From NCBI RefSeq assembly GCF_900113745.1, contig NZ_FOQL01000001.1, positions 992,001 through 1,056,000 on the forward strand: a stretch of DNA of 64,000 nucleotides. Reading direction: 5' to 3'. Below are positions 32-54,640 of this stretch, piece by piece; positions within the stretch are counted from its first letter, which is position 1, and every line of letters starts with the position of its first letter. Origin of the DNA: Pseudomonas guineae (lineage in GTDB: Bacteria > Pseudomonadota > Gammaproteobacteria > Pseudomonadales > Pseudomonadaceae). Under the pieces are notes generated by a model that was given only the letters and a program-made list of their open reading frames with translations, was not told the origin of the DNA and searched no databases. A program made the translations under genes and the position numbers.

Positions 32-130
32 GGCCTTACTAAAGAGTATCCCCCGCGCATGCAAGCTCCGCTGTGGTTGATTGTCGCGTGGCAGCCTGCC
101 ACAAGGATTGCAGTGCGTCGCATGCGGCGT

Positions 131-30496: not shown

Positions 30497-31093
30497 ATGG
30501 CGTCCGCGCTATTCAGCCTGTATTTGAAACTGTTGGTGCTCTACAGCCCCTTCTTCGTGCTGTCGTGCTTTATTGGCTTGAGCCGTGGCTACACGGTCAA
30601 AGAGCGTAAGCGCCTGGCCTGGAAGGTCGCGCTTGGCGTATTGATCGCCAGCGTGCTGCTGTACCTGTTCGGTAAACACATCTTCACCCTGTTCGGCATC
30701 ACCATTGATGCCTTCCGCATCGGTGCGGGCAGCGTGCTGTTTATCTCGGCGCTGGGCATGGCCCAGGGTAAGTCGGCCGTACAGACCGATAACGTGCAGC
30801 AAGACGTGACTATCGTGCCGTTGACCATCCCGTTGACCGTCGGCCCCGGCACCATCGGCGCCCTACTACTGATGGGTGCCAGCCAACCGGACTGGAGCGA
30901 CAAGGCCGTGGCCGTGCTAGGCATCGCCCTGGCCAGCTTCACCGTGGGCGTGGTGCTTTATATGTCCAACCAGTTCGAGCGCTTGCTCGGCGATCAGGGC
31001 CTGCAGATCGTCAGCCGCCTGATGGGCCTGTTCGTTTGCGCCCTGGCCGCGCAAATCATCTTTACCGGGGTAAAAAACTACCTGATCAGCTGA
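30497..31093 (+). CDS. MarC family integral membrane protein
   Basis: 198 residues with about six transmembrane helices in two similar halves, characteristic of the MarC/NAAT family. TIPLTVGPGTIGALLLMG is the family signature. Some archaeal members were described as amino acid transporters, but most bacterial ones have no proven substrate; E. coli MarC is not needed for multiple antibiotic resistance. RBS is weak (GAGACGAG). In P. aeruginosa a single gene also lies between retS and the urea transporter genes. Confidence 0.85.
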   Translation: MASALFSLYLKLLVLYSPFFVLSCFIGLSRGYTVKERKRLAWKVALGVLIASVLLYLFGKHIFTLFGITIDAFRIGAGSVLFISALGMAQGKSAVQTDNVQQDVTIVPLTIPLTVGPGTIGALLLMGASQPDWSDKAVAVLGIALASFTVGVVLYMSNQFERLLGDQGLQIVSRLMGLFVCALAAQIIFTGVKNYLIS

Positions 31094-31149
31094 CACTCAG
31101 CCTTCACGCCCCAGCACAGCACACACCCACGCACCACAACACGCCCTTC

Positions 31150-31164
31150 GCACCTGCATGGTGC
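31150..31164. promoter_or_regulatory. NtrC-type binding site upstream of urtA
   Basis: GCACC-TGCAT-GGTGC is a perfect match to the NtrC dimer consensus GCACY-N5-GGTGC. It lies about 160 bp upstream of the sigma-54 -24 element, a normal distance for an enhancer site. This ties the downstream urea genes to nitrogen limitation. Confidence 0.75.
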
Positions 31165-31187
31165 AACCACACCGACAACCATCACAC

Positions 31188-31215
31188 CGCCCCCCGGCTG
31201 CACAGCCGGGGGGCG
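31188..31215. repeat. Perfect 13-bp GC-rich palindrome between NtrC site and sigma-54 promoter
   Basis: Arms 31188-31200 and 31203-31215 are exact complements rich in C/G runs, separated by CA. It could end marC transcription (no U run follows) or act as a DNA structure in the enhancer-promoter loop. Confidence 0.6.
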
Positions 31216-31321
31216 CAACACCTGCGGCTGCCCGTTAACCACGACATTCCCCAGGCCATAGCGCACCTCAGGGCCTATCCGCGCGTGTTGCCGGGCGCGA
31301 TCTGCCTGGCCTTACGCAAAC

Positions 31322-31337
31322 AGGCACAGCAATTGCT
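31322..31337 (+). promoter_or_regulatory. Sigma-54 promoter of the urt operon
   Basis: AGGCAC-AGCAA-TTGCT fits the -24/-12 consensus TGGCAC-N5-TTGCW with one mismatch, with invariant GG (31323-31324) and GC (31335-31336) at exact spacing. Transcription should start near 31348, leaving a leader of about 120 bases that opens with an 8-bp hairpin (31352-31368). Confidence 0.8.
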
Positions 31338-31468
31338 CTAGTCCTGTCGGGGACAGCGCAGCGCTGTCGACGTTTCCGGGTGCAGCTTATGCCCCGTTGC
31401 TTCACTGCCAAGACCAATAAGCCCAAATCAGCAGTTAACAAAGTATCTTTGTGAATGGAGATCGCACC

Positions 31469-32734
31469 ATGCAACGTCGCAATCTGATCAAGGCCCTAAC
31501 CCTTTCCGCCTCTATCGCCGCCATGGGCATGACCTGGACCGTGCAGGCCGCCGAGACGATCAAGGTCGGCATCCTGCACTCGCTGTCCGGCACCATGGCC
31601 ATTTCGGAAACCTCGCTGAAAGACATGGCGTTGATGACCATCGACGAAATCAACGCCAAGGGCGGCGTTAACGGCAAGCAGCTTGAAGCCGTTGTGGTTG
31701 ATCCCGCCTCCAACTGGCCGCTGTTCGCCGAGAAAGGCCGTCAACTGCTGACCCAGGACAAGGTCGATGTGGTGTTCGGCTGCTGGACCAGCGTGTCGCG
31801 CAAATCAGTATTGCCGGTATTTGAAGAGCTCAACGGCCTGCTGTTTTACCCCGTGCAGTACGAAGGCGAAGAGATGTCGCCTAACGTCTTCTACACCGGT
31901 GCGGCGCCAAACCAGCAAGCCATCCCGGCGGTCGAGTACCTGATGAGCGAAGACGGCGGCGCCGCCAAGCGCTACTTCCTGCTCGGCACCGACTACGTCT
32001 ACCCGCGCACCACCAACAAAATCCTGCGCAGCTTCCTGGTCAGCAAAGGCGTCGCCGAGAAAGACATCGAAGAGGTCTACACCCCGTTCGGTCACAGCGA
32101 TTACCAAACCATCGTCGCCAACATCAAGAAGTTCTCCGCCGGCGGCAAAACCGCGGTGATCTCCACGGTTAACGGTGACTCTAACGTGCCGTTCTACAAA
32201 GAGCTGGCTAACCAGGGCATCGAAGCCACCGACATCCCGGTGGTGGCCTTCTCGGTCGGCGAAGAAGAACTGCGCGGCATCGACACCAAGCCGCTGGTCG
32301 GCCAACTGGCGGCTTGGAACTACTTCCAGTCGGTGGAGAACCCGGTCAACACCGAGTTCGTCAACAAGTGGAAGGCCTACGCCAAGGCCAAGAACCTGCC
32401 AGGCGCCGACAAAGCCGTGACCAACGACCCGATGGAAGCCACCTACGTGGGCATCAACATGTGGGCACAAGCGGTCGAGAAAGCCGGCAGCACCGACGTC
32501 GACAAGGTGCGTGACGCCCTCGCCGGCCAGACCTTCGCCGCGCCAAGCGGTTACACCCTGACCATGGACAAAACCAACCACCACCTGCACAAGCCGGTGA
32601 TGATCGGCGAAGTACAGGAAGACGGGCAGTTCGAAGTCGTCTGGCAGACCGAAGGCCCGCTGCGCGCCCAGCCGTGGAGCCCTTACATCGAAGGCAACGA
32701 CAAGAAGCCGGATTACGCGGTCAAATCGAACTAA
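31469..32734 (+). CDS. urtA: Urea ABC transporter substrate-binding protein
   Basis: Periplasmic receptor that captures urea for UrtBCDE. 421 residues with a signal peptide ending near VQA-AETIKVG. The N-terminus MQRRNLIKAL has twin arginines in a Tat-like context (RRNLIK), so export by Tat rather than Sec is possible. The mature protein is a Leu/Ile/Val-type binding protein of the amide/urea group; EGEEMSPNVFYTGAAPNQQ and WKAYAKAKN are typical of UrtA. A start at GTG 31451 is open, but ATG 31469 follows TGGAG and starts the signal peptide. Regulated by the upstream sigma-54 promoter. Confidence 0.94.
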   Translation: MQRRNLIKALTLSASIAAMGMTWTVQAAETIKVGILHSLSGTMAISETSLKDMALMTIDEINAKGGVNGKQLEAVVVDPASNWPLFAEKGRQLLTQDKVDVVFGCWTSVSRKSVLPVFEELNGLLFYPVQYEGEEMSPNVFYTGAAPNQQAIPAVEYLMSEDGGAAKRYFLLGTDYVYPRTTNKILRSFLVSKGVAEKDIEEVYTPFGHSDYQTIVANIKKFSAGGKTAVISTVNGDSNVPFYKELANQGIEATDIPVVAFSVGEEELRGIDTKPLVGQLAAWNYFQSVENPVNTEFVNKWKAYAKAKNLPGADKAVTNDPMEATYVGINMWAQAVEKAGSTDVDKVRDALAGQTFAAPSGYTLTMDKTNHHLHKPVMIGEVQEDGQFEVVWQTEGPLRAQPWSPYIEGNDKKPDYAVKSN

Positions 32735-32845: not shown

Positions 32846-34417
32846 ATGCCCACTGCTTTTAGCCGAATTCTATTCAGCCTGCTGTTGCTGCTGCCTATGG
32901 CTGCGCAAGCAGGTGACGCCAATGATTTTGCCGCTGCCAACCCCGCCAAGCAGGCCAGCCTGCTGCAACAGTGGTCGGCCAACCCTGACAGCGCGCGCTT
33001 AGCGTTGCTCGAAGCGCTGCAACAAGGCCGCGTGGCCGCAGACAGCAGCAAACAGGCATTTATTGAACACGACGGCAGCTACCGCGCCGTCGAAGGTGAT
33101 GCCGCCCCCACTGGGCAGACCCGCAAACTGCGCCTGAATAACCGCATGCGCGGTTTGATCAGCACCGCCATGGCCAGCCACCAGTTGCTATCCGACGACC
33201 CGGCGCTGCGTCTGGCCGCCGCGCAGGAATTACAGAAGCGCGCCAAGCCAGCGCAATTAGCGTTACTCGAAGCCAGCGTGGCCCGCGAAGCCGATGACGC
33301 GGTACGCGACGCGCTGACCCTGGCGCTGGCCAACCTGCAGCTGGTCGATAGCGACCCAACTGTGCGTTTGGCTGCTGTGCGCCTGCTCGGTGAAACCGGC
33401 GAGCCGCTGGCGCGCACTCGCCTGGAAACCCTGCTGGATCCCGACGTCGAGAGCGACCCCAGCGTGCGCACCGCGGCCGAGACCAGCCTGGCGCAGGTCA
33501 AACGTAAACTGCTGGTCGGCGAGCTGCTCGGTCAGGCGTTCAGCGGCCTGTCACTCGGTTCGATTTTGCTGCTCGCCGCGCTGGGCCTGGCCATCACCTT
33601 CGGCCTGCTCGGGGTGATCAACATGGCCCACGGCGAAATGCTCATGCTCGGCGCCTACTCCACCTACATGGTGCAGGTGCTGTTCCAGCGTTTCGCCCCG
33701 GAAGCCCTGGCGCTCTATCCGCTGGTGGCGCTACCGGTGGCATTCTTCGTCACTGCGGCCATCGGCATGGCGCTGGAGCGCACGGTGATCCGCCACCTCT
33801 ACGGTCGTCCGCTGGAAACCCTGCTGGCCACCTGGGGCATCAGCCTGATCCTGATCCAGTTGGTGCGGGTGATGTTCGGCGCGCAAAACGTCGAAGTAGC
33901 CAACCCTTACTGGCTGTCCGGTGGCATCCAAGTGCTGCCCAATCTGGTGCTGCCGTATAACCGCATTGTGATCATCGGCTTCGCCCTGTTTGTGGTGCTG
34001 CTCACCTGGCTACTGCTGAACAAGACCCGCCTGGGCCTCAACGTCCGTGCCGTCACCCAGAACCGCAACATGGCCGCCTGCTGCGGCGTGCCGACCGGGC
34101 GGGTGGACATGCTCGCTTTCGGCCTCGGCTCCGGCATCGCCGGCCTCGGCGGCGTGGCCCTGAGCCAGATCGGCAACGTCGGCCCGGACCTCGGCCAGAG
34201 CTACATCATCGACTCCTTCCTGGTGGTGGTACTCGGCGGCGTCGGCCAACTGGCCGGTAGCGTCATGGCCGCCTTTGGTCTGGGCATCGCCAACAAGATT
34301 CTCGAACCGCAGATCGGCGCCGTACTCGGCAAAATTCTGATCCTCGCGCTGATCATTCTGTTTATCCAGAAACGTCCGCAAGGCCTCTTCGCACTCAAGG
34401 GACGGGTGATCGACTGA
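32846..34417 (+). CDS. urtB: Urea ABC transporter permease UrtB
   Basis: Inner-membrane permease of 523 residues, long for a branched-chain-type permease because of an N-terminal exported extension. A signal peptide (residues 1-20) is followed by about 190 residues with HEAT-like helical repeats (LALANLQLVDSDPTVRLAAVRLL), and the LivH-type membrane domain starts near residue 225. This architecture is typical of UrtB. LLGVINMAHGEMLMLGAYS is the permease signature. The stop overlaps the urtC start by one base. Confidence 0.94.
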   Translation: MPTAFSRILFSLLLLLPMAAQAGDANDFAAANPAKQASLLQQWSANPDSARLALLEALQQGRVAADSSKQAFIEHDGSYRAVEGDAAPTGQTRKLRLNNRMRGLISTAMASHQLLSDDPALRLAAAQELQKRAKPAQLALLEASVAREADDAVRDALTLALANLQLVDSDPTVRLAAVRLLGETGEPLARTRLETLLDPDVESDPSVRTAAETSLAQVKRKLLVGELLGQAFSGLSLGSILLLAALGLAITFGLLGVINMAHGEMLMLGAYSTYMVQVLFQRFAPEALALYPLVALPVAFFVTAAIGMALERTVIRHLYGRPLETLLATWGISLILIQLVRVMFGAQNVEVANPYWLSGGIQVLPNLVLPYNRIVIIGFALFVVLLTWLLLNKTRLGLNVRAVTQNRNMAACCGVPTGRVDMLAFGLGSGIAGLGGVALSQIGNVGPDLGQSYIIDSFLVVVLGGVGQLAGSVMAAFGLGIANKILEPQIGAVLGKILILALIILFIQKRPQGLFALKGRVID

Positions 34418-35508
34418 TGACTATGCCACTCAATCAAACCCTGCTGGCCCGCGCCAGCGCCAAGCTTGGCCCGCAGGCGTCAATTTCCATCGGCTTACTG
34501 GTGTTGCTGGTGCTGCTGGCCATGCCGGTGCTGCACCTGCTGCCCGCAGACAACGCCCTGCATATCTCCGCTTACAGCCTGACCCTAGTCGGCAAAATCC
34601 TCTGCTACTGCATCGTCGCCTTGGCGCTCGATCTGGTCTGGGGTTACGCCGGCCTGCTGTCCCTCGGCCACGGTCTGTTCTTCGCCCTCGGCGGTTACGC
34701 CATGGGCATGTACCTGATGCGCGAAGCGGCCGGCGATGGTTTGCCGGCCTTTATGAGCTTCCTCGCCTGGACCGAGTTGCCTTGGTACTGGACCGGCACC
34801 GACAACTTCCTCTGGGCGCTGTGCCTGGTGGTACTGGCCCCCGGCTTGCTGGCGTTGGTGTTTGGTTATTTCGCCTTCAATTCACGGATCAAGGGCGTGT
34901 ACTTCTCGATCATGACCCAGGCGCTAACGTTCGCCGGCATGCTGCTGTTCTTTCGCAACGAAACCGGTTTTGGCGGCAATAACGGCTTTACCAACTTCAA
35001 GACGATTCTCGGCTTCGATATCACCGCAACCCACACCCGCGCGGTGCTGTTCCTCGCCACCGTACTGCTGCTGGTGGCCAGTCTCTATCTCGGCTGGCGG
35101 CTGGCACGGAGCAAATTCGGCCGGGTGCTGACGGCGCTGCGCGACGCGGAAAACCGCCTGATGTTCTGCGGCTACGACCCGCGCGGCTACAAGCTGTTTA
35201 TCTGGGTCTTGAGCGCGGTGCTATGCGGCCTGGCTGGCGCGCTGTATGTGCCGCAGGTGGGCATCATCAACCCCAGCGAAATGTCGCCAACCAACTCCAT
35301 CGAGGCCGCGGTGTGGGTGGCTTTGGGCGGACGCGGCACGCTGATCGGCCCACTGCTCGGCGCCGGCCTGGTCAATGGCATGAAGAGCTGGTTCACCGTG
35401 GCCTTCCCTGAATACTGGCTGTTCGCCCTGGGCTTTCTGTTCATCGTCGTCACCCTGTTTCTGCCCAAAGGCGTGATCGGCCTTCTGCGCAAGAAAGGAG
35501 AGCAATAA
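34417..35508 (+). CDS. urtC: Urea ABC transporter permease UrtC
   Basis: Second permease, 363 residues, LivM type, with roughly nine to ten transmembrane helices. LDLVWGYAGLLSLGHGLFFALGGYAMG is the family region, and RVLTALRDAENRLMFCGYDP forms the cytoplasmic loop that contacts the ATPases. ATG at 34417 overlaps the urtB stop by one base (TGATG); a second ATG two codons on is possible. Its own stop overlaps urtD by one base, so urtBCD are translationally coupled. Confidence 0.94.
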   Translation: MTMPLNQTLLARASAKLGPQASISIGLLVLLVLLAMPVLHLLPADNALHISAYSLTLVGKILCYCIVALALDLVWGYAGLLSLGHGLFFALGGYAMGMYLMREAAGDGLPAFMSFLAWTELPWYWTGTDNFLWALCLVVLAPGLLALVFGYFAFNSRIKGVYFSIMTQALTFAGMLLFFRNETGFGGNNGFTNFKTILGFDITATHTRAVLFLATVLLLVASLYLGWRLARSKFGRVLTALRDAENRLMFCGYDPRGYKLFIWVLSAVLCGLAGALYVPQVGIINPSEMSPTNSIEAAVWVALGGRGTLIGPLLGAGLVNGMKSWFTVAFPEYWLFALGFLFIVVTLFLPKGVIGLLRKKGEQ

Positions 35509-36359
35509 TGCGCGCGACTCCGACACCCGACTTGATGCTTGAGCCAGCCTTCGACGCCGCCGGTAGCGGCCGCGACGCTATTGGCGCCAGCAGCCTGGCC
35601 AACAAGGGCCTGAACACTCGCCACGGCACCATCCTGACCCTGGAAGAGATCAACGTCAGCTTCGATGGCTTCAAGGCGCTGAGCAACCTGACCCTATATA
35701 TCGGCGTCGGTGAATTGCGCTGCATCATCGGCCCTAACGGCGCTGGCAAGACCACCATGATGGACGTGATCACCGGTAAAACCCGCCCCGACAATGGCGT
35801 GGCCTACTTCGGTGAAACCCTCGATCTGACCCAGATGAGCGAAGTGGCCATTGCTCAATCCGGCATCGGCCGCAAGTTCCAGAAGCCCACGGTGTTCGAG
35901 GCACTCAGCGTGTTCGAAAACCTTGAATTGGCGCAGAAAACCAACAAGTCAGTGTGGGCCAGCCTGCGCGCCAAACTGAGCGGCGAGCAGCAAGACCGCA
36001 TCGATGAGGTGCTGCAGACGATCAAGCTCGACAACTCACGCCAACGCCCGGCCGGCTTGCTTTCCCACGGACAGAAGCAGTTTCTGGAAATTGGCATGCT
36101 GTTGGTGCAAGACCCACAACTGTTGCTATTGGACGAACCGGTGGCGGGCATGACCGACGCGGAAACCGAGTTCACCGCCGAGCTGTTCAAGTCTCTGGCG
36201 CGCAAGCATTCGCTGATGGTGGTCGAGCACGACATGGGCTTCGTTGGCTCCATCGCCGACCACGTCACCGTGCTGCACCAGGGCAGCGTGCTGGCCGAAG
36301 GTTCGCTGGAGCAGGTGCAGAACGATGAACGGGTGATTGAGGTTTATCTCGGCCGGTAA
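35508..36359 (+). CDS. urtD: Urea ABC transporter ATPase UrtD
   Basis: LivG-type ATP-binding subunit of 283 residues, with an N-terminal extension of about 45 residues before the ABC domain, which UrtD proteins commonly show. Walker A is GPNGAGKTT, the signature region reads LLSHGQKQFLEIGM, Walker B is LLLLDEPVAGM and the H-loop is VVEHDM. It pairs with UrtE. A REPIN-like element separates it from urtE although both should lie on one mRNA. Confidence 0.94.
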   Translation: MRATPTPDLMLEPAFDAAGSGRDAIGASSLANKGLNTRHGTILTLEEINVSFDGFKALSNLTLYIGVGELRCIIGPNGAGKTTMMDVITGKTRPDNGVAYFGETLDLTQMSEVAIAQSGIGRKFQKPTVFEALSVFENLELAQKTNKSVWASLRAKLSGEQQDRIDEVLQTIKLDNSRQRPAGLLSHGQKQFLEIGMLLVQDPQLLLLDEPVAGMTDAETEFTAELFKSLARKHSLMVVEHDMGFVGSIADHVTVLHQGSVLAEGSLEQVQNDERVIEVYLGR

Positions 36360-36496: not shown

Positions 36497-37195
36497 ATGC
36501 TGCAAGTCCAACAGCTCCACCAATATTACGGCGGCAGTCATATCCTCCGCGGCCTGTCATTCGAGGCTAAGGTCGGCGAAGTCACCTGCCTGCTCGGGCG
36601 CAACGGCGTGGGTAAAACCACCTTGCTGAAATGCCTGATGGGTCTGATCCCGGCCAAAGAAGGCGCGGTGCAATGGGAAGGCCAGCCGATTACTGCGCTC
36701 AAACCACACCAGCGCGTGCATGCGGGCATCGCCTACGTTCCCCAGGGCCGCGAGATTTTCGGCCGCCTGACCGTGGAAGAGAATCTACTGATGGGCCTGT
36801 CACGCTTCCCTGGCAGCGACGCCAAGGTAGTGCCGGAATTTATCTACGAACTGTTCCCGGTACTGCGCGAGATGAAGCAGCGCCGTGGCGGCGACCTCTC
36901 CGGCGGGCAACAGCAACAGCTGGCGATTGGCCGTGCACTGGCGAGCAAGCCGCGTCTGTTGATCCTCGATGAGCCCACCGAAGGTATTCAGCCGTCGGTG
37001 ATCAAAGAGATCGGCGTGGTAATCAAGAAGCTCGCCGAACGCGGCGACATGGCCATCCTGCTGGTTGAGCAGTTCTATGACTTTGCCGCCGAACTGGCCG
37101 ATCAGTACCTGGTGATGAGCCGCGGTGAAGTTGTCCAGCAAGGTCGCGGCGAAAGCATGGAAGCCGATGGTGTGCGCGGACTGGTTGCGATCTGA
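36497..37195 (+). CDS. urtE: Urea ABC transporter ATPase UrtE
   Basis: LivF-type ATP-binding subunit, 232 residues. Walker A GRNGVGKTT, signature LSGGQQQQLAIGRAL, Walker B LLILDEPTEGI and H-loop LLVEQF are intact. The QGREIFGRLTVEENL segment is typical of UrtE. RBS is AAGGA. Completes the urtABCDE transporter; urease structural genes follow after one small membrane gene. Confidence 0.95.
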   Translation: MLQVQQLHQYYGGSHILRGLSFEAKVGEVTCLLGRNGVGKTTLLKCLMGLIPAKEGAVQWEGQPITALKPHQRVHAGIAYVPQGREIFGRLTVEENLLMGLSRFPGSDAKVVPEFIYELFPVLREMKQRRGGDLSGGQQQQLAIGRALASKPRLLILDEPTEGIQPSVIKEIGVVIKKLAERGDMAILLVEQFYDFAAELADQYLVMSRGEVVQQGRGESMEADGVRGLVAI

Positions 37196-37260: not shown

Positions 37261-37671
37261 ATGATCTGGCGCCACCTGCTTCTACCACTCACCGCAATAG
37301 CTGGCCTGAGCATGGTCATCTGGGGCGGCTTTATGCCTGACTACTGGATGCTCCGCCACCTGCCGCCCGGCACTGAGCCCGCCTACCCGCTGCAGACCGT
37401 GCTGACCTTCTGCGCGATTATCCTAGCCGAATGCCTGCTGCTGTTGGCCGTGCTGCGCCCCGGCTCCTATTGCCGTTCGTGGGGCCGCGCCCTGTGCGCC
37501 AGCCTGCTTGCACTGGCGATAGCCGGGTTCTGGTTGAGCGGCTTTATGCACGCGCCGCCTTACTACGGCATGCACCTGCAATGGTGGCTCTGGGTCACCC
37601 TCGGTTTGCTCATGCTAACCCTCTTGTCCGCTGGCCAAGCCTGGCGGCAGCGGCGCAAGGTGGCCGAATGA
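37261..37671 (+). CDS. Small membrane protein of unknown function
   Basis: 136 residues with four predicted transmembrane helices and two longer polar loops ([18 protein letters not shown] and [15 protein letters not shown]). I do not recognise a family. It lies between urtE and ureD, and its stop codon overlaps the ureD start by four bases (ATGA), so it belongs to the urea operon. P. aeruginosa also has an uncharacterised gene at this place. A link to urea, ammonia or nickel handling is inference from position alone. Confidence 0.78.
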
Positions 37672-38501
37672 ACGCACCTGCCTCTGTATTCACGCCCAAC
37701 TGGCAGGCCGAGCTGGAACTGGCCTACGGTCACGACGGTGCGGCAACACGGCCCACCCTGCGCCGCCATAAAGGCCCACTACGGGTACAGAAGCACCTGT
37801 ATGCAGAAGGGCCGGACGTATGCCAGCACATTATCGTCCACCCGCCGGGCGGGATTGCCGGCGGCGATCGCTTGGATATTTGCGCCACGGTCGGCGCTAA
37901 CGCCTGGGCGCAGCTGACCAGCCCAGGCGCCGCCAAGTGGTACCGCGCCGCCGGCCCTGCTTACCAACAGCTCAACCTGCGCGTGGCCGCCGGGGCCACC
38001 TTGGAATGGCTGCCGCAGGAAACCATCATCTACTCAGCGGCCCAAGCCGAACTCACTACCGAGATCGACTTGGAGGGCGACGCCAAGCTGCTGTACTGGG
38101 ACATCATCGCCCTCGGTCGCCCGGCCAGTGGTGAGCGTTTCGACGCTGGGCACTTTCAAGCGCAGCTAAATATTCGCCGCGACGGCCAATTACTTTGGCA
38201 CGAACGCCAGCGCGTCATCGGCGGCGATGGCCTGCTCGAGTCGCCCATAGGCTTGGACGGTAAGCCGGTATTCGCCACATTGCTTATCACCGGCGAAATC
38301 GACAACGAATTGCTTGAAAGCTGTCGAGAGCTGCCCAACCCAGTGCGCGGCGACCTGACTCAACTACCCGGCCTGTTGGTCGCTCGCTGCCTGGCCAGCG
38401 AAGCGCTGCAAGCGCGCGCCTGGTTGATCGATCTTTGGCGCCTACTGCGCCCTGAGTTGCTAGGTCGCACTGCCGTCCCCCCACGAATTTGGAGCACGTA
38501 G
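37668..38501 (+). CDS. ureD: Urease accessory protein UreD
   Basis: Chaperone that binds apo-urease and helps UreF and UreG deliver nickel. 277 residues. The family stretches [25 protein letters not shown] and [12 protein letters not shown] are clear. The frame is open from 37431, but ATG 37668 overlaps the preceding stop and starts a normal UreD. The TAG stop (38499-38501) is part of the GTAG head of a REP-like element, so insertion of the repeat may have set the present C-terminus. ureE, ureF and ureG are not in the window. Confidence 0.93.
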
Positions 38502-38566
38502 GGTGGGCAACCGCGCAGCGTTGTCCACCACCTACAGGTGGATGTGAAAAACGACATCCTCCCTAC
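38498..38566. repeat. REPIN-like element between ureD and ureA (copy 4)
   Basis: Left unit GTAGGGTGGGCAAC...GTTGTCCACC and right unit, on the minus strand, GTAGGGAGGATGT...ACATCCACC, placed head-out. The left head supplies the ureD stop codon; the right end is 15 bases before the ureA start. Confidence 0.8.
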
Positions 38567-38581
38567 GAACGGAGCAAAACG

Positions 38582-38884
38582 ATGGACCTTACACCGAGAG
38601 AGAAAGACAAACTGCTGATTTTCACCGCCGGGTTAGTGGCCGAACGCCGCCTGGCACGCGGGGTGAAACTCAACTACCCGGAGGCCATGGCCTACATCTC
38701 TGCGGCCCTGCTGGAAGGCGCCCGCGACGGCCAGACCGTGGCCGACCTGATGCACTACGGCACCACCCTGCTGACCCGCGATCAGGTGATGGAAGGCATC
38801 CCGGAAATGATCCCGGACATTCAGGTTGAAGCCACCTTCCCGGATGGCACCAAGCTGGTTACCGTCCACCAGCCCATTGCGTAA
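38582..38884 (+). CDS. ureA: Urease gamma subunit
   Basis: 100 residues, exactly the usual UreA size. Starts [35 protein letters not shown] and [20 protein letters not shown]-like C-terminal motifs are typical. ATG 38582 follows GGAG; longer in-frame reading through the REPIN is an artefact. Urease hydrolyses urea to ammonia and carbamate; the gamma subunit is structural. The acetyltransferase gene follows five bases later. Confidence 0.96.
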
Positions 38885-38889
38885 TCAGC

Positions 38890-39387
38890 ATGCCTATTAT
38901 TGATGCTACCCAAGCCGACCTGCCCGCCATCCTCGCCATCTACAACGACGCGGTCGAGCACACCACGGCCATCTGGAATGAGACCCAAGTTGACCTGGCC
39001 AACCGCCAGACTTGGCTGGCCGAGCGCACGGCTGCCGGCTTCCCGGTCTTGGTCGCCCATGATGACGCAGGCAGCGTGGTTGGCTACGCCAGCTATGGCA
39101 CCTGGCGCGCTATCGAGGGCTTTCGCCATACCGTTGAGCATTCGGTGTATGTGCGCAGCGACCAACGCGGTCAGGGCCTGGGCCCGCTGCTGATGCAGGC
39201 GCTGATCGAGCGCGCCCAACAGGCTCGCCTGCACGTCATGGTTGCCGCCATTGAAAGCGGCAACAGCGCCTCAATCCGCCTGCACGAGCGCCTCGGTTTC
39301 GTCACCACCGGACAGATGCCGCAAGTCGGCCGTAAGTTCGACCGTTGGCTCGATCTCACTTTTATGCAATTGATGCTGGAGCACTAG
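38890..39387 (+). CDS. GNAT N-acetyltransferase, methionine sulfoximine/phosphinothricin type
   Basis: 165-residue GNAT enzyme using acetyl-CoA. The pyrophosphate-binding loop [12 protein letters not shown] is present, with [15 protein letters not shown] and [21 protein letters not shown] marking the Pat/MddA subgroup that acetylates methionine sulfoximine, methionine sulfone and sometimes phosphinothricin. P. aeruginosa PA4866 is a close match at the same position, between ureA and ureB. As methionine sulfoximine inhibits glutamine synthetase, a place in a nitrogen operon is sensible. ATG spacing of five bases after ureA suggests coupling. Confidence 0.92.
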
Positions 39388-39391
39388 CGCA

Positions 39392-39697
39392 ATGATTCCC
39401 GGCGAATACCAGATCCAAGACGGCGATATCGAGCTCAATGTTGGCCGTCGCACCCTGGCCCTGACGGTGGCCAATAGCGGCGATCGACCGATTCAGGTTG
39501 GCTCGCACTTTCACTTTTTCGAAACCAATGACGCGTTGGCATTTGATCGCGCCGCCACGCGTGGCATGCGCCTGAATATTCCGGCCGGCACCGCGGTGCG
39601 TTTCGAACCGGGACAATCACGGCAAGTTGAATTGGTCGACCTCGCTGGCCAGCGCCGGGTGTTCGGCTTTGCTGGCCGGGTGATGGGCGATCTCTGA
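39392..39697 (+). CDS. ureB: Urease beta subunit
   Basis: 101 residues, the standard UreB length. [37 protein letters not shown] and [18 protein letters not shown] are near-invariant family segments. Starts four bases after the acetyltransferase stop. A REPIN-like element separates it from ureC by 120 bp, unlike the tight ureB-ureC spacing in most bacteria. Confidence 0.96.
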
Positions 39698-39709: not shown

Positions 39710-39801
39710 GTAGGGTGGGGCGGGCGGCGCTCCGTTGAGCGCACCGACACCCATAATCTCGCAACGATGGGTTACGCCACTACGTGGCTAACCCATCCTA
39801 C
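39710..39801. repeat. REPIN-like element between ureB and ureC (copy 5)
   Basis: Left head GTAGGGTGGGGCG at 39710; right unit on the minus strand begins GTAGGATGGGTTAG at 39801 and returns through TAACCCATC. The right half closely matches the right half of copy 6. It ends 16 bases before the ureC ATG, next to the ribosome site. Confidence 0.78.
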
Positions 39802-39817
39802 GGACAGGACTCAAAGC

Positions 39818-41518
39818 ATGAAAATTTCCCGCCAAGCCTATGCCGATATGTTCGGCCCCACCGTCGGCGACAAGGTGCGCCTGGCCGATACCGAGCTGTG
39901 GATTGAAGTGGAAAAAGACTTCACCACCTACGGCGAGGAAGTGAAATTCGGCGGCGGCAAAGTCATACGCGACGGCATGGGCCAGGGCCAACTGTGCGCC
40001 GCCGATGTGGTCGACACGCTGATCACCAACGCGCTGATCATCGACCACTGGGGCATCGTTAAAGCTGACGTCGGCCTGAAAGACGGCCGCATCGCCGCCA
40101 TCGGTAAAGCCGGCAACCCGGACATCCAGCCCGACGTGACCATTGCCATCGGCGCGGGTACCGAAGTGATCGCCGGTGAGGGCATGATCCTTACCGCCGG
40201 CGGCATCGACAGCCATATCCACTTTATCTGCCCACAGCAGATCGAAGAGGCGTTGATGAGCGGCGTGACCACCATGATTGGCGGCGGCACTGGGCCGGCT
40301 ACCGGCACCAACGCCACCACCTGCACGCCAGGGCCTTGGCATATGGCGCGCATGCTGCAGGCCGCTGACGCCTTCCCGATGAACCTAGGCTTTACTGGCA
40401 AAGGTAACGCCTCCTTGCCCGAACCGCTGATTGAACAAGTCAAAGCCGGTGCGATTGGCCTCAAGCTGCATGAAGACTGGGGCACCACCCCGGCGGCGAT
40501 CGATAACTGCCTGAACGTGGCCGACCAATACGATGTGCAGGTGGCGATCCACACCGACACGCTCAACGAGTCCGGCTTCGTCGAAACTACCTTGGCCGCG
40601 TTCAAGGGCCGCACCATTCACACCTATCACACCGAAGGTGCAGGCGGTGGTCATGCGCCGGACATCATCAAGGCCTGTGGCTTTCCCAACGTGCTGCCGT
40701 CCTCGACCAACCCGACCCGGCCCTTTACCCGCAACACCATCGACGAACACCTCGACATGCTCATGGTCTGCCACCATCTCGACCCGAGCATTGCCGAGGA
40801 TGTGGCCTTTGCCGAATCGCGCATTCGCCGTGAAACCATCGCCGCCGAAGACATCCTGCACGACCTCGGCGCGTTCAGCATGATCAGCTCAGACAGTCAG
40901 GCCATGGGCCGCGTCGGCGAAGTGATCACCCGCACCTGGCAGACCGCCGACAAGATGCACAAGCAGCGCGGTCCGCTACCAGGCGATGGTGCAGGCAACA
41001 GCAACTTCCGGGTCAAACGCTACATCGCCAAATACACCATCAACCCGGCCATCACCCACGGCATCAGCCATGAAGTAGGGTCGATTGAAGTGGGTAAATG
41101 GGCGGACCTGGTGCTCTGGCGTCCGGCCTTCTTCGGCGTGAAACCGACGCTGATTTTGAAGGGTGGCGCGATTGCCGCCAGCCTGATGGGCGACGCCAAC
41201 GCCTCGATCCCGACGCCGCAGCCGGTGCACTACCGACCGATGTTCGCCAGCTATGGTGGCAGCCGCCACGCCACCAGTTTCACCTTTATCAGCCAGGCCG
41301 CATTTGATGCCGGAGTACCCGAGCAACTCGGTTTGAAGAAGAAGATTGGTGTGGTCAAAGGCTGTCGTGAGGTGCAGAAGACCGACCTGATCCACAACGA
41401 TTACTTGCCGAACATCGAGGTGGATGCGCAGAACTATCAGGTCAAGGCAGACGGCCAATTGCTCTGGTGCGAACCGGCGGATGTGTTGCCGATGGCGCAG
41501 CGTTATTTTCTGTTCTGA
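39818..41518 (+). CDS. ureC: Urease alpha (catalytic) subunit
   Basis: 566 residues, the standard length, holding the dinickel centre. Nickel ligands are visible in HIHFICPQQ, the lysine to be carbamylated lies in [15 protein letters not shown], further histidines in [13 protein letters not shown] and [15 protein letters not shown], the mobile-flap histidine in MVCHHLD, and the aspartate ligand in [12 protein letters not shown] 39818 is chosen because it gives the conserved [15 protein letters not shown]; the longer frame reads through the REPIN. Needs UreDEFG for nickel loading. Its stop is two bases from that of the converging downstream gene. Confidence 0.97.
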
Positions 41519-53560: not shown

Positions 53561-54640
53561 TCAGCTATTGCGATAGCGCCGCGGCACCCGCGCAGTGACC
53601 TTGCTGAGCAGCTCGTAGCCAATAGTACCAGCGGCCTGCGCCACCTCATCTACCGGCAACTGCGCGCCCCATAACTCCACCACATCACCCTCAGCAGCAT
53701 CGGGCAGGTCGGTCAAATCAACGCTTAGCATATCCATCGATACCCGCCCGACCAGCGCTACGCGCTGACCTCGCACGATCACTGGCGTACCCGTCGGAGC
53801 ATGCCGCGGATAGCCATCGGCATAACCGCAACTCACCGTACCAATACGTGACTGCCGTTCGGCGCACCAGCTAGCGCCATAACCGACGGCCTCACCAACG
53901 GCCACATCGCGACAGGCAATCAGCTGCGCCGTCAGGCTCATCGCCGGGCGCACACTCAACTCTGCCGCAGTCAAATCAGCGAATGGCGTCGCGCCGTAGA
54001 GCATGATGCCGGGGCGCAGCCAATCCATATGCGCCGCCGGAATGGTCAGAATCGCCGCCGAGTTAGCCAGTGAGCGCTGGGCAAAATCCAGGTCTAGTAG
54101 CTCGAGAAACTGCTCAAGCTGCAGCTCGATGGTTTCACTGCCGCGCTCATCCGCGCAGGCAAAGTGGCTAAGCAAATTCAACTCAGCGACCTGCACCGCG
54201 CCGTGCAGATGCCCGTGCCATTCACGCAGCGCAGCCGCACTAAAACCCAGCCGATGCATACCACTGTCGAGTTTCAACCAAACATTCAACGGCCGACTCA
54301 GCGTGGCCGCGAGCAACTGCTGTGCCTGCAGGGCATTGTGTAGCACCACGTCCAGGCCTAGCTGCGCAGCAAATTGATATTCATCCGCAGCAAAGCAACC
54401 TTCTAGCAGCAGGATGCGCGCTTCGCCATGTAAGGCACGCACCTCAGCGGCCTCCTCCAGGCAGGCCACAGCAAAGCCATCGGCGATACCGTGCAGGGCC
54501 GTCACCACCTCGCGCACGCCGTGCCCATAGGCATTCGCCTTGACCACTGCAAACGCCTGTCGCCCCGGCGCGCAACGCTTGGCCACGGCATAATTGTGAG
54601 TGATCGCAGACAAATCGATGGAGGCAACAAGCGGGCGCAT
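53561..54640 (-). CDS. alr: Alanine racemase
   Basis: PLP enzyme interconverting L- and D-alanine for peptidoglycan. 359 residues. The PLP lysine is K34 in AFAVVKANAYGHG; the second catalytic base is the tyrosine in GEAVGYGASW, and SRIGTVSCGYADGYPR follows. ATG 54640 with AAGGA upstream gives the family N-terminus MRPLVASIDLSA. It lies downstream of dnaB, separated by a bidirectional terminator, so it must have its own promoter or rely on read-through. Confidence 0.95.
   Translation of the reverse strand: MRPLVASIDLSAITHNYAVAKRCAPGRQAFAVVKANAYGHGVREVVTALHGIADGFAVACLEEAAEVRALHGEARILLLEGCFAADEYQFAAQLGLDVVLHNALQAQQLLAATLSRPLNVWLKLDSGMHRLGFSAAALREWHGHLHGAVQVAELNLLSHFACADERGSETIELQLEQFLELLDLDFAQRSLANSAAILTIPAAHMDWLRPGIMLYGATPFADLTAAELSVRPAMSLTAQLIACRDVAVGEAVGYGASWCAERQSRIGTVSCGYADGYPRHAPTGTPVIVRGQRVALVGRVSMDMLSVDLTDLPDAAEGDVVELWGAQLPVDEVAQAAGTIGYELLSKVTARVPRRYRNS

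Follow-up and report, generated by a model that had tools for sequence, protein, structure and literature searches.

We analysed a 64-kb stretch of DNA, referred to as the window, from a host genome of 4.15 Mb whose nearest named UrtA relatives belong to Pseudomonas. On the plus strand, purD is followed by a 7TMR-DISM hybrid histidine kinase gene, marC, a 375-bp gap, urtABCDE, a 136-aa ORF, ureD, ureA, a GNAT ORF, ureB, and ureC. The kinase domains were found by profile search, and from their order we take this gene to be retS. The features in and downstream of the gap are as follows.

30497..31093, plus strand: marC-family gene (PF01914, TIGR00427), upstream of the gap
31148..31168, plus strand: gntR remnant island around the NtrC site, matching the L065 gntR coding sequence at 20/21 bases
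31150..31164, strand not applicable: NtrC-type site GCACC-TGCAT-GGTGC, exact match
31188..31215, strand not applicable: GC hairpin with 13-bp arms and a 2-nt loop, T-run on neither side
31316..31344, plus strand: gntR remnant island around the sigma-54 promoter, 24/29 bases identical to the G109 and L001 gntR
31322..31337, plus strand: sigma-54 -24/-12 element AGGCACAGCAATTGCT, from a pattern scan
31348, plus strand: predicted transcription start, placed by its spacing from the -12 GC
31352..31368, strand not applicable: perfect 17-bp palindrome GACAGCGC-A-GCGCTGTC, covering roughly +5 to +21 relative to the predicted start
31469..32734, plus strand: urtA with ATG start (TIGR03407, above cut-off)
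32846..34417, plus strand: urtB (TIGR03409)
34417..35508, plus strand: urtC (TIGR03408)
35508..36359, plus strand: urtD (TIGR03411)
36497..37195, plus strand: urtE (TIGR03410)
37261..37671, plus strand: 136-aa ORF between urtE and ureD, hydrophobic by eye, overlapping the ureD start
37668..38501, plus strand: ureD (PF01774)
38489..38884, plus strand: ureA (PF00547); these are ORF limits, with the family match starting at about 38582
38890-39387, within the urease cluster: GNAT acetyltransferase ORF, ArsN1-like below cut-off
39392..39697, plus strand: ureB (family profile match)
39767..41518, plus strand: ureC (family profile match)

The initial annotation had described the gap as a nitrogen-control promoter, and its sequence motifs were confirmed. 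The NtrC half-site pair is exact, and the GC palindrome has perfect 13-bp arms at 31188-31200 and 31203-31215. The sigma-54 element, one mismatch away from TGGCACRNNNNTTGCW, has the claimed exact spacing, with GG at 31323-31324, GC at 31335-31336, and exactly 10 bases between them. This GG-N10-GC spacing places the predicted +1 near 31348, in agreement with the earlier estimate, and the end point that had been given for the region, 31469, coincides with the first base of the urtA ATG; the predicted leader is thus about 121 nt long. The NtrC and sigma-54 sites lie 172 bp apart, start to start. The exact NtrC pattern matched once in the 64-kb window and at 22 places in the genome, compared with 3 for the reversed pattern, and the loose sigma-54 pattern (≤2 mismatches) was common in the whole window (24 observed versus 29.7 expected). 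First-order Markov simulations of the gap (n = 3000) yielded an exact NtrC site in 11 runs, a sigma-54 site with ≤1 mismatch in 34 runs, and both together in none; the co-occurrence of the two sites in the gap is not due to chance. NtrC-activated promoters usually have two NtrC sites in tandem. The gap contained one exact site and, as the next best, one with two mismatches inside the hairpin, and these did not form a tandem pair. Further sigma-54-like sites with one mismatch were seen in the window at 97-112 (plus strand) and at 54312-54327 (minus strand); the latter, AGGCACAGCAGTTGCT, differs by one base from the urtA element. A 101-aa ORF at 31036-31341 was considered as a coding remnant and ruled out, as its frame is broken in the related locus L014.

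To assess conservation, we compared 80 related urtA upstream regions, 78 from named Pseudomonas and two from metagenome bins, with control windows located 3' of the urtA start in the same loci. A sigma-54 site (≤1 mismatch, 520 bases) was present in 78/80 upstream regions and in 7/1600 controls. Exact NtrC sites were found in nine of the 80 compared with 2.9% of controls; the loose NtrC pattern (two mismatches) occurred in 78/80 but also in 54% of controls, and therefore carries little weight. In the usual layout of these loci, a sigma-54 site stood between about -50 and -73 of urtA and the NtrC-like sites were weaker. Both ntrC and rpoN are encoded in the host genome (TIGR01818 and TIGR02395, above cut-off). 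In P. putida KT2440, where urt is also nitrogen-controlled (PMC8050072, PMC7801951) and occupies PP_4841 onward, a PurtA reporter described as sigma-54 type was induced 8.8-fold on nitrogen depletion (PMC8050072), and the increase in urtABCD under nitrogen limitation was ascribed to NtrB/NtrC with reference to Hervas et al. (PMC7801951). RNA-seq in the latter study gave 12.7-fold induction of urtA in the wild type and 11.1-fold in an rpoN mutant under nitrogen limitation (PMC7801951, Table 2), which speaks against strict RpoN dependence in P. putida and is the kind of outcome that the initial annotation had named as contradicting its promoter reading; the P. putida urtA upstream region was not identified among the compared loci, and its layout may account for this outcome. 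On the conservation in 78/80 loci, the presence of ntrC and rpoN, and the published induction in P. putida, the predicted NtrC/sigma-54 promoter of urtABCDE is well supported; this part of the initial reading stands, whereas the role it gave to the palindrome in looping is unsupported.

Sigma-54 polymerase waits in a closed state at -24/-12 and requires an ATP-driven activator (PMC4591121), as is also generally known. Under nitrogen shortage, we infer that phosphorylated NtrC would bind at 31150-31164, that the DNA between the sites would loop, and that NtrC, acting over about 190 bp, would open the polymerase waiting at 31322-31337, so that transcription would start near 31348. Among relatives the spacing of the two sites ranged from 82 to 246 bp, which fits a looping enhancer.

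The genes urtABCDE, the small ORF, ureD, ureA, the GNAT ORF, ureB, and ureC all lie on one strand. Between 30300 and 42000, a scan for sigma-70-like promoters found none (2.8 in shuffles), and terminator-like sites showed no excess (11 versus 9.5 in shuffles). The gene layout suggests that in the window the ure genes likely follow urt on one message, and the joint nitrogen control of urea transport and hydrolysis put forward in the initial annotation is plausible on this basis. In P. putida, unlike in the window, urease lies apart from urt (ureD = PP_2842; PMC8050072); on nitrate, ureD (log2 4.38) and urtA (log2 4.37) both increase, from these separate loci (PMC8050072). Several other observations were made in this region. 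The 136-aa ORF at 37261-37671 gave no match in a Pfam search, and L065 and L197 have only about 20 bp in its place. The GNAT ORF resembles ArsN1 resistance acetyltransferases, with scores below their cut-offs, and is present in most of the ure-bearing loci among those listed. A match to Rfam RF02514 (5' ureB sRNA, 124 bits) at 39964-40250 on the minus strand is antisense to ureC and may reflect coding conservation only.

The 13-bp GC hairpin is predicted to fold strongly as RNA (-28.9 kcal/mol, z -5.0). Among the compared loci, its core was found only in the window's own genome and that of L014. The initial annotation had assigned the palindrome a part in looping, and this was unsupported, because of the restriction of the core to these two genomes and because the NtrC and sigma-54 sites keep their order without it over 82-246 bp. 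On this comparison the palindrome is a local addition, outside the urt switch common to relatives. A function in the control region, either in looping or as a marC terminator, is unlikely in our estimation. The strength of the hairpin argues for it, as does the perfect stem that L014 retains despite differing arm letters, which is a hint of some function; against it, the core was in no further genome compared, it is unneeded for the order of the sites elsewhere, and the GC hairpin lacks a T-run and was absent from the terminator-like sites of the scan. Two further readings of the palindrome were rejected. It is not a repeated element, as the core pattern occurs once in the genome, and it is not a relic of a marC terminator, as such a hairpin was absent between marC and atzF in the five intact loci examined, two of which had unrelated 7-8-bp hairpins. 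The 17-bp palindrome at 31352-31368, just behind the predicted start, has one exact place in the genome, is identical in L014, and is a possible operator. An Rfam search of the urtA leader gave no match, and its fold was no better than those of shuffles (z -0.28).

In relatives of the window the gene order is marC-atzF-gntR-urtA. There gntR lies between atzF (allophanate hydrolase) and urtA, immediately preceding the latter, with extra DNA between atzF and gntR in some of the loci listed, and the NtrC and sigma-54 sites lie within the gntR coding sequence, 240-246 bp apart. Such internal sites were read in L001, L002, L003, L004, L006, L011, L055, and L065, intact or degraded, L004 and L011 having degraded forms. 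The codons for R-T-W-(L/M)-V form the NtrC site, and those for E-A-Q-(L/Q)-L-L the promoter. In G109, whose UrtA is 99% identical to that of the window, the order is marC-atzF-gntR-urtABCDE-ure, and its gntR, which encodes a protein with GntR and FCD domains (Pfam), contains an exact NtrC site and AGGCACAGCTATTGCT 246 bp apart. Relative to urtA, these sigma-54 sites lie within the upstream gene in the sense orientation, and we infer that the gntR-coded promoter drives urtA in these relatives.

We further examined whether the sites depend on the position of gntR. From 91 loci, 73 distinct sequences were taken in, with matches below 57% identity left out; of 80 places, 30 and 39 were taken in, L199 fell below the identity filter, and 10 were left out. 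Setting aside the fragments L041 and L157 left 71 gntR genes for the codon comparison, 40 adjacent to urtA and 31 non-adjacent. Both sites (≤1 mismatch, homologous codons) were present in 26/40 distinct adjacent genes and in 0/31 non-adjacent ones, and the sigma-54 site alone at the homologous codons in 31/40 versus 1/31 (Fisher p 5.7e-11, ignoring relatedness). Most of the adjacent sigma-54 copies were the 16-mer of the window or differed from it by one base. Fourteen of the 40 adjacent genes lacked the full pair, five of which (L127-L131) retained the sigma-54 site only. In 11 of these 14 loci, a scan of the 520 bases ahead of urtA for an alternative sigma-54 site (≤1 mismatch) found none except in L127 and L128, where the copy is the gntR-coded one. 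The non-adjacent gntR genes mostly lie behind atzF without urtA; in one of them, L187, an exact NtrC site is present, and urtA is likewise missing behind this gene.

The contrast extended to the choice of codons. Ala205, an alanine in all 71 genes, is encoded by GCA in 37/40 adjacent and 0/31 non-adjacent genes, and Leu208 by TTG in 36/40 and 11/31, respectively; in the adjacent genes as a whole, sites included, GCA and TTG account for 15% of alanine codons and 11% of leucine codons, respectively. At these two promoter positions the difference is one of codon usage only. For codon 207, 21/40 adjacent genes have CTA and the non-adjacent ones mostly encode glutamine; as codons 207 and 122, the latter in the NtrC site, mostly encode other amino acids in the non-adjacent genes, the contrast there is not purely synonymous. 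A sliding-window test of synonymous conservation revealed no outliers, the NtrC window ranking second (z 1.87) and the sigma-54 window 11th (z 1.52). In a family-wide sample, for which 30 (22 new) and 20 of 72 places were taken in and 22 left out, both sites were found at 240 or 246 bp in 19/33 adjacent and 0/9 non-adjacent loci. One of the 22 left out, G352, was already in the first comparison, and L221, L230, and L231 repeat genomes of that comparison, so the two counts are not additive. Within the single genus g12, both sites were present in 8/9 adjacent loci (the exception being L215) and in 0/3 non-adjacent ones.

The window itself has lost this gene. The host genome contained no close gntR (best match 31%) and no close atzF, the best being a 50% atzF-like gene elsewhere in the genome, so the sigma-54 site of the window is not inside an intact gene. 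Recognisable gntR sequence was left in the gap only as about 20 bp around the NtrC site and 29 bp around the promoter; these islands (31148-31168 and 31316-31344) scored 37 and 33, while 100 shuffles reached at most 27. Among the compared loci we met nine marC-urtA loci without an intact gntR, which do not amount to a census, and six of these kept both sites, namely the window, L014, L041, L021, L190, and L200. The NtrC site is exact in five of them and has one mismatch in L041, and the spacing to the sigma-54 site ranges from 82 to 207 bp with the order unchanged. The tail of gntR is still encoded in L041, and a decaying gntR pseudogene with several deletions and insertions is present in L200. 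Compared with L154, L200 is identical at 31/31 bases inside the sites and 432/628 outside them; the flanks within 40 bases are also fairly well conserved (54/80 and 64/80), and there are further perfect runs of 15 bases. L021 and L190 have no recognisable gntR, and their gntR origin is deduced from the order of the sites and from the tree.

The remaining three of the nine loci, L191, L207, and L208, kept neither old site. Ahead of urtA they share a different sigma-54-like sequence, TGGCACGGATGCTGCC, and the UrtA tree alone groups them together, which would fit a replacement of urt along with its own promoter. L201, L203-L206, and L209 had no marC in the compared stretch. In a midpoint-rooted MarC+RetS tree of 27 chosen loci, the window and L014 are sisters (support 1.0) surrounded by gntR-bearing loci; four branches hold the gntR-less loci that keep the sites (window and L014; L041; L021 and L190; L200). 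The midpoint-rooted UrtA tree instead groups the window with G109 and L014 with L195/L196; this conflict with the MarC+RetS tree points to recombination in urtA.

A second sigma-54 element, of the form TGGCAC-N5-TTGCT and accompanied by loose NtrC matches, was observed ahead of atzF in L001, L189, L193-L197, and L202. With sigma-54 elements ahead of both atzF and urtA, such loci contain two successive candidate nitrogen promoters. This arrangement offers another origin for the gap of the window, in which both atzF and gntR were deleted in full, so that the atzF promoter, with its NtrC-like and sigma-54 sites, came to lie ahead of urtA. All eight atzF upstream regions have a sigma-54 site (≤1 mismatch) and a loose NtrC match (≤2 mismatches), and the 3' end of the window element, TTGCTCTAG, is also found ahead of atzF in L196. 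Both elements of the window resemble gntR more closely: in local alignments the NtrC element scored 17-35 against seven gntR genes (17 being the L196 gntR) and 12-19 against the eight atzF upstream regions, and the sigma-54 element 30-38 versus 16-26. The window core AGGCACAGC has the gntR form, whereas the eight atzF copies read TGGCACC or TGGCACT, and the route through gntR is visible in L041 and L200. We regard an origin from the atzF promoter as quite improbable.

The direction of change could also be reversed, with an intergenic promoter as the ancestral state and a later insertion of atzF-gntR, in which the gene came to extend across the sites. In most of the 80 loci a sigma-54 site stands at about -50 to -73 of urtA with no gntR ahead, so a urt promoter does not need gntR. 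Later insertion nevertheless receives hardly any credence from us, since gntR-bearing loci are spread over the MarC+RetS tree with the gntR-less ones nested among them, L041 keeps the gntR tail only, and the gntR in L200 is decayed. Furthermore, the bare GG-N10-GC skeleton, lacking the promoter letters, is encoded by 28/31 non-adjacent gntR genes. The same skeleton could suggest that the internal sites are a functionless by-product of the protein sequence, as a stretch of the E-A-Q-x-L-L type by itself yields GG-N10-GC in these 28 genes, and part of the adjacent versus non-adjacent contrast lies in amino acids rather than codons. The protein sequence does not account for the invariant Ala205 being GCA in almost every gene beside urtA and in none elsewhere, and the sites outlive the GntR protein in several lineages, which makes a by-product very improbable.

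The reading we prefer is that the enhancer and promoter were formerly coded in the last half of an FCD-type gntR in the order marC-atzF-gntR-urtA. The window lineage would have lost atzF and gntR, and selection would have kept the two DNA sites. Taken together, the sequence comparisons suggest that the gap probably holds a functional sigma-54 promoter, activated by NtrC, for urtABCDE and probably also for urease, and that this promoter was once gntR-coded and has outlived the loss of that gene.

Intragenic sigma-54 promoters are known from E. coli, inside rlmD driving relA (NtrC-activated), inside nagB, and inside yqeC (PMC4591121). In the E. coli cases a sense sigma-54 promoter inside one gene drives the next (PMC4591121), and the sense sigma-54 sites inside gntR would act in the same way in the relatives of the window. 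The relatives differ from E. coli in that one gene also encodes the NtrC site and that this gene is a regulator located next to the urea genes; in the window it is lost and the sites remain. The leader also differs, at about 121 nt predicted in the window versus 360-760 nt in the E. coli cases (PMC4591121). A comparative study of NtrC regulons lists urtABCDEF and ureABC as targets in several orders and atzF in Rhizobiales (PMC5343134); its sections on these targets do not list Pseudomonas for urt and make no mention of intragenic sites (PMC5343134). Likewise, the portions of the P. putida reports that deal with urt describe no gntR gene or coded sites (PMC8050072, PMC7801951). Among the open-licence papers listed in literature searches, we recognised none on an intragenic urtA promoter in Pseudomonas. 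What appears to be new is a control region that is written in the codons of a neighbouring regulator and outlives the regulator gene.

We tentatively suggest that codons may long have served as the enhancer and promoter of a neighbouring gene in three genera (g1, g12, and g15). Loss of the regulator would then have turned a doubly controlled urea module (GntR and NtrC, with amidolyase and urease branches) into one controlled by NtrC only, leaving a selected fossil promoter. If this is true, the GntR protein, or transcription through gntR, once modulated the embedded urt promoter. The several lineages that dropped the protein and kept the DNA sites would provide a natural test for the function of promoters and enhancers in coding sequence. 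Promoter searches restricted to intergenic DNA would miss the urt promoter in gntR-bearing relatives, and a neat intergenic control region may arise through gene loss instead of site gain.
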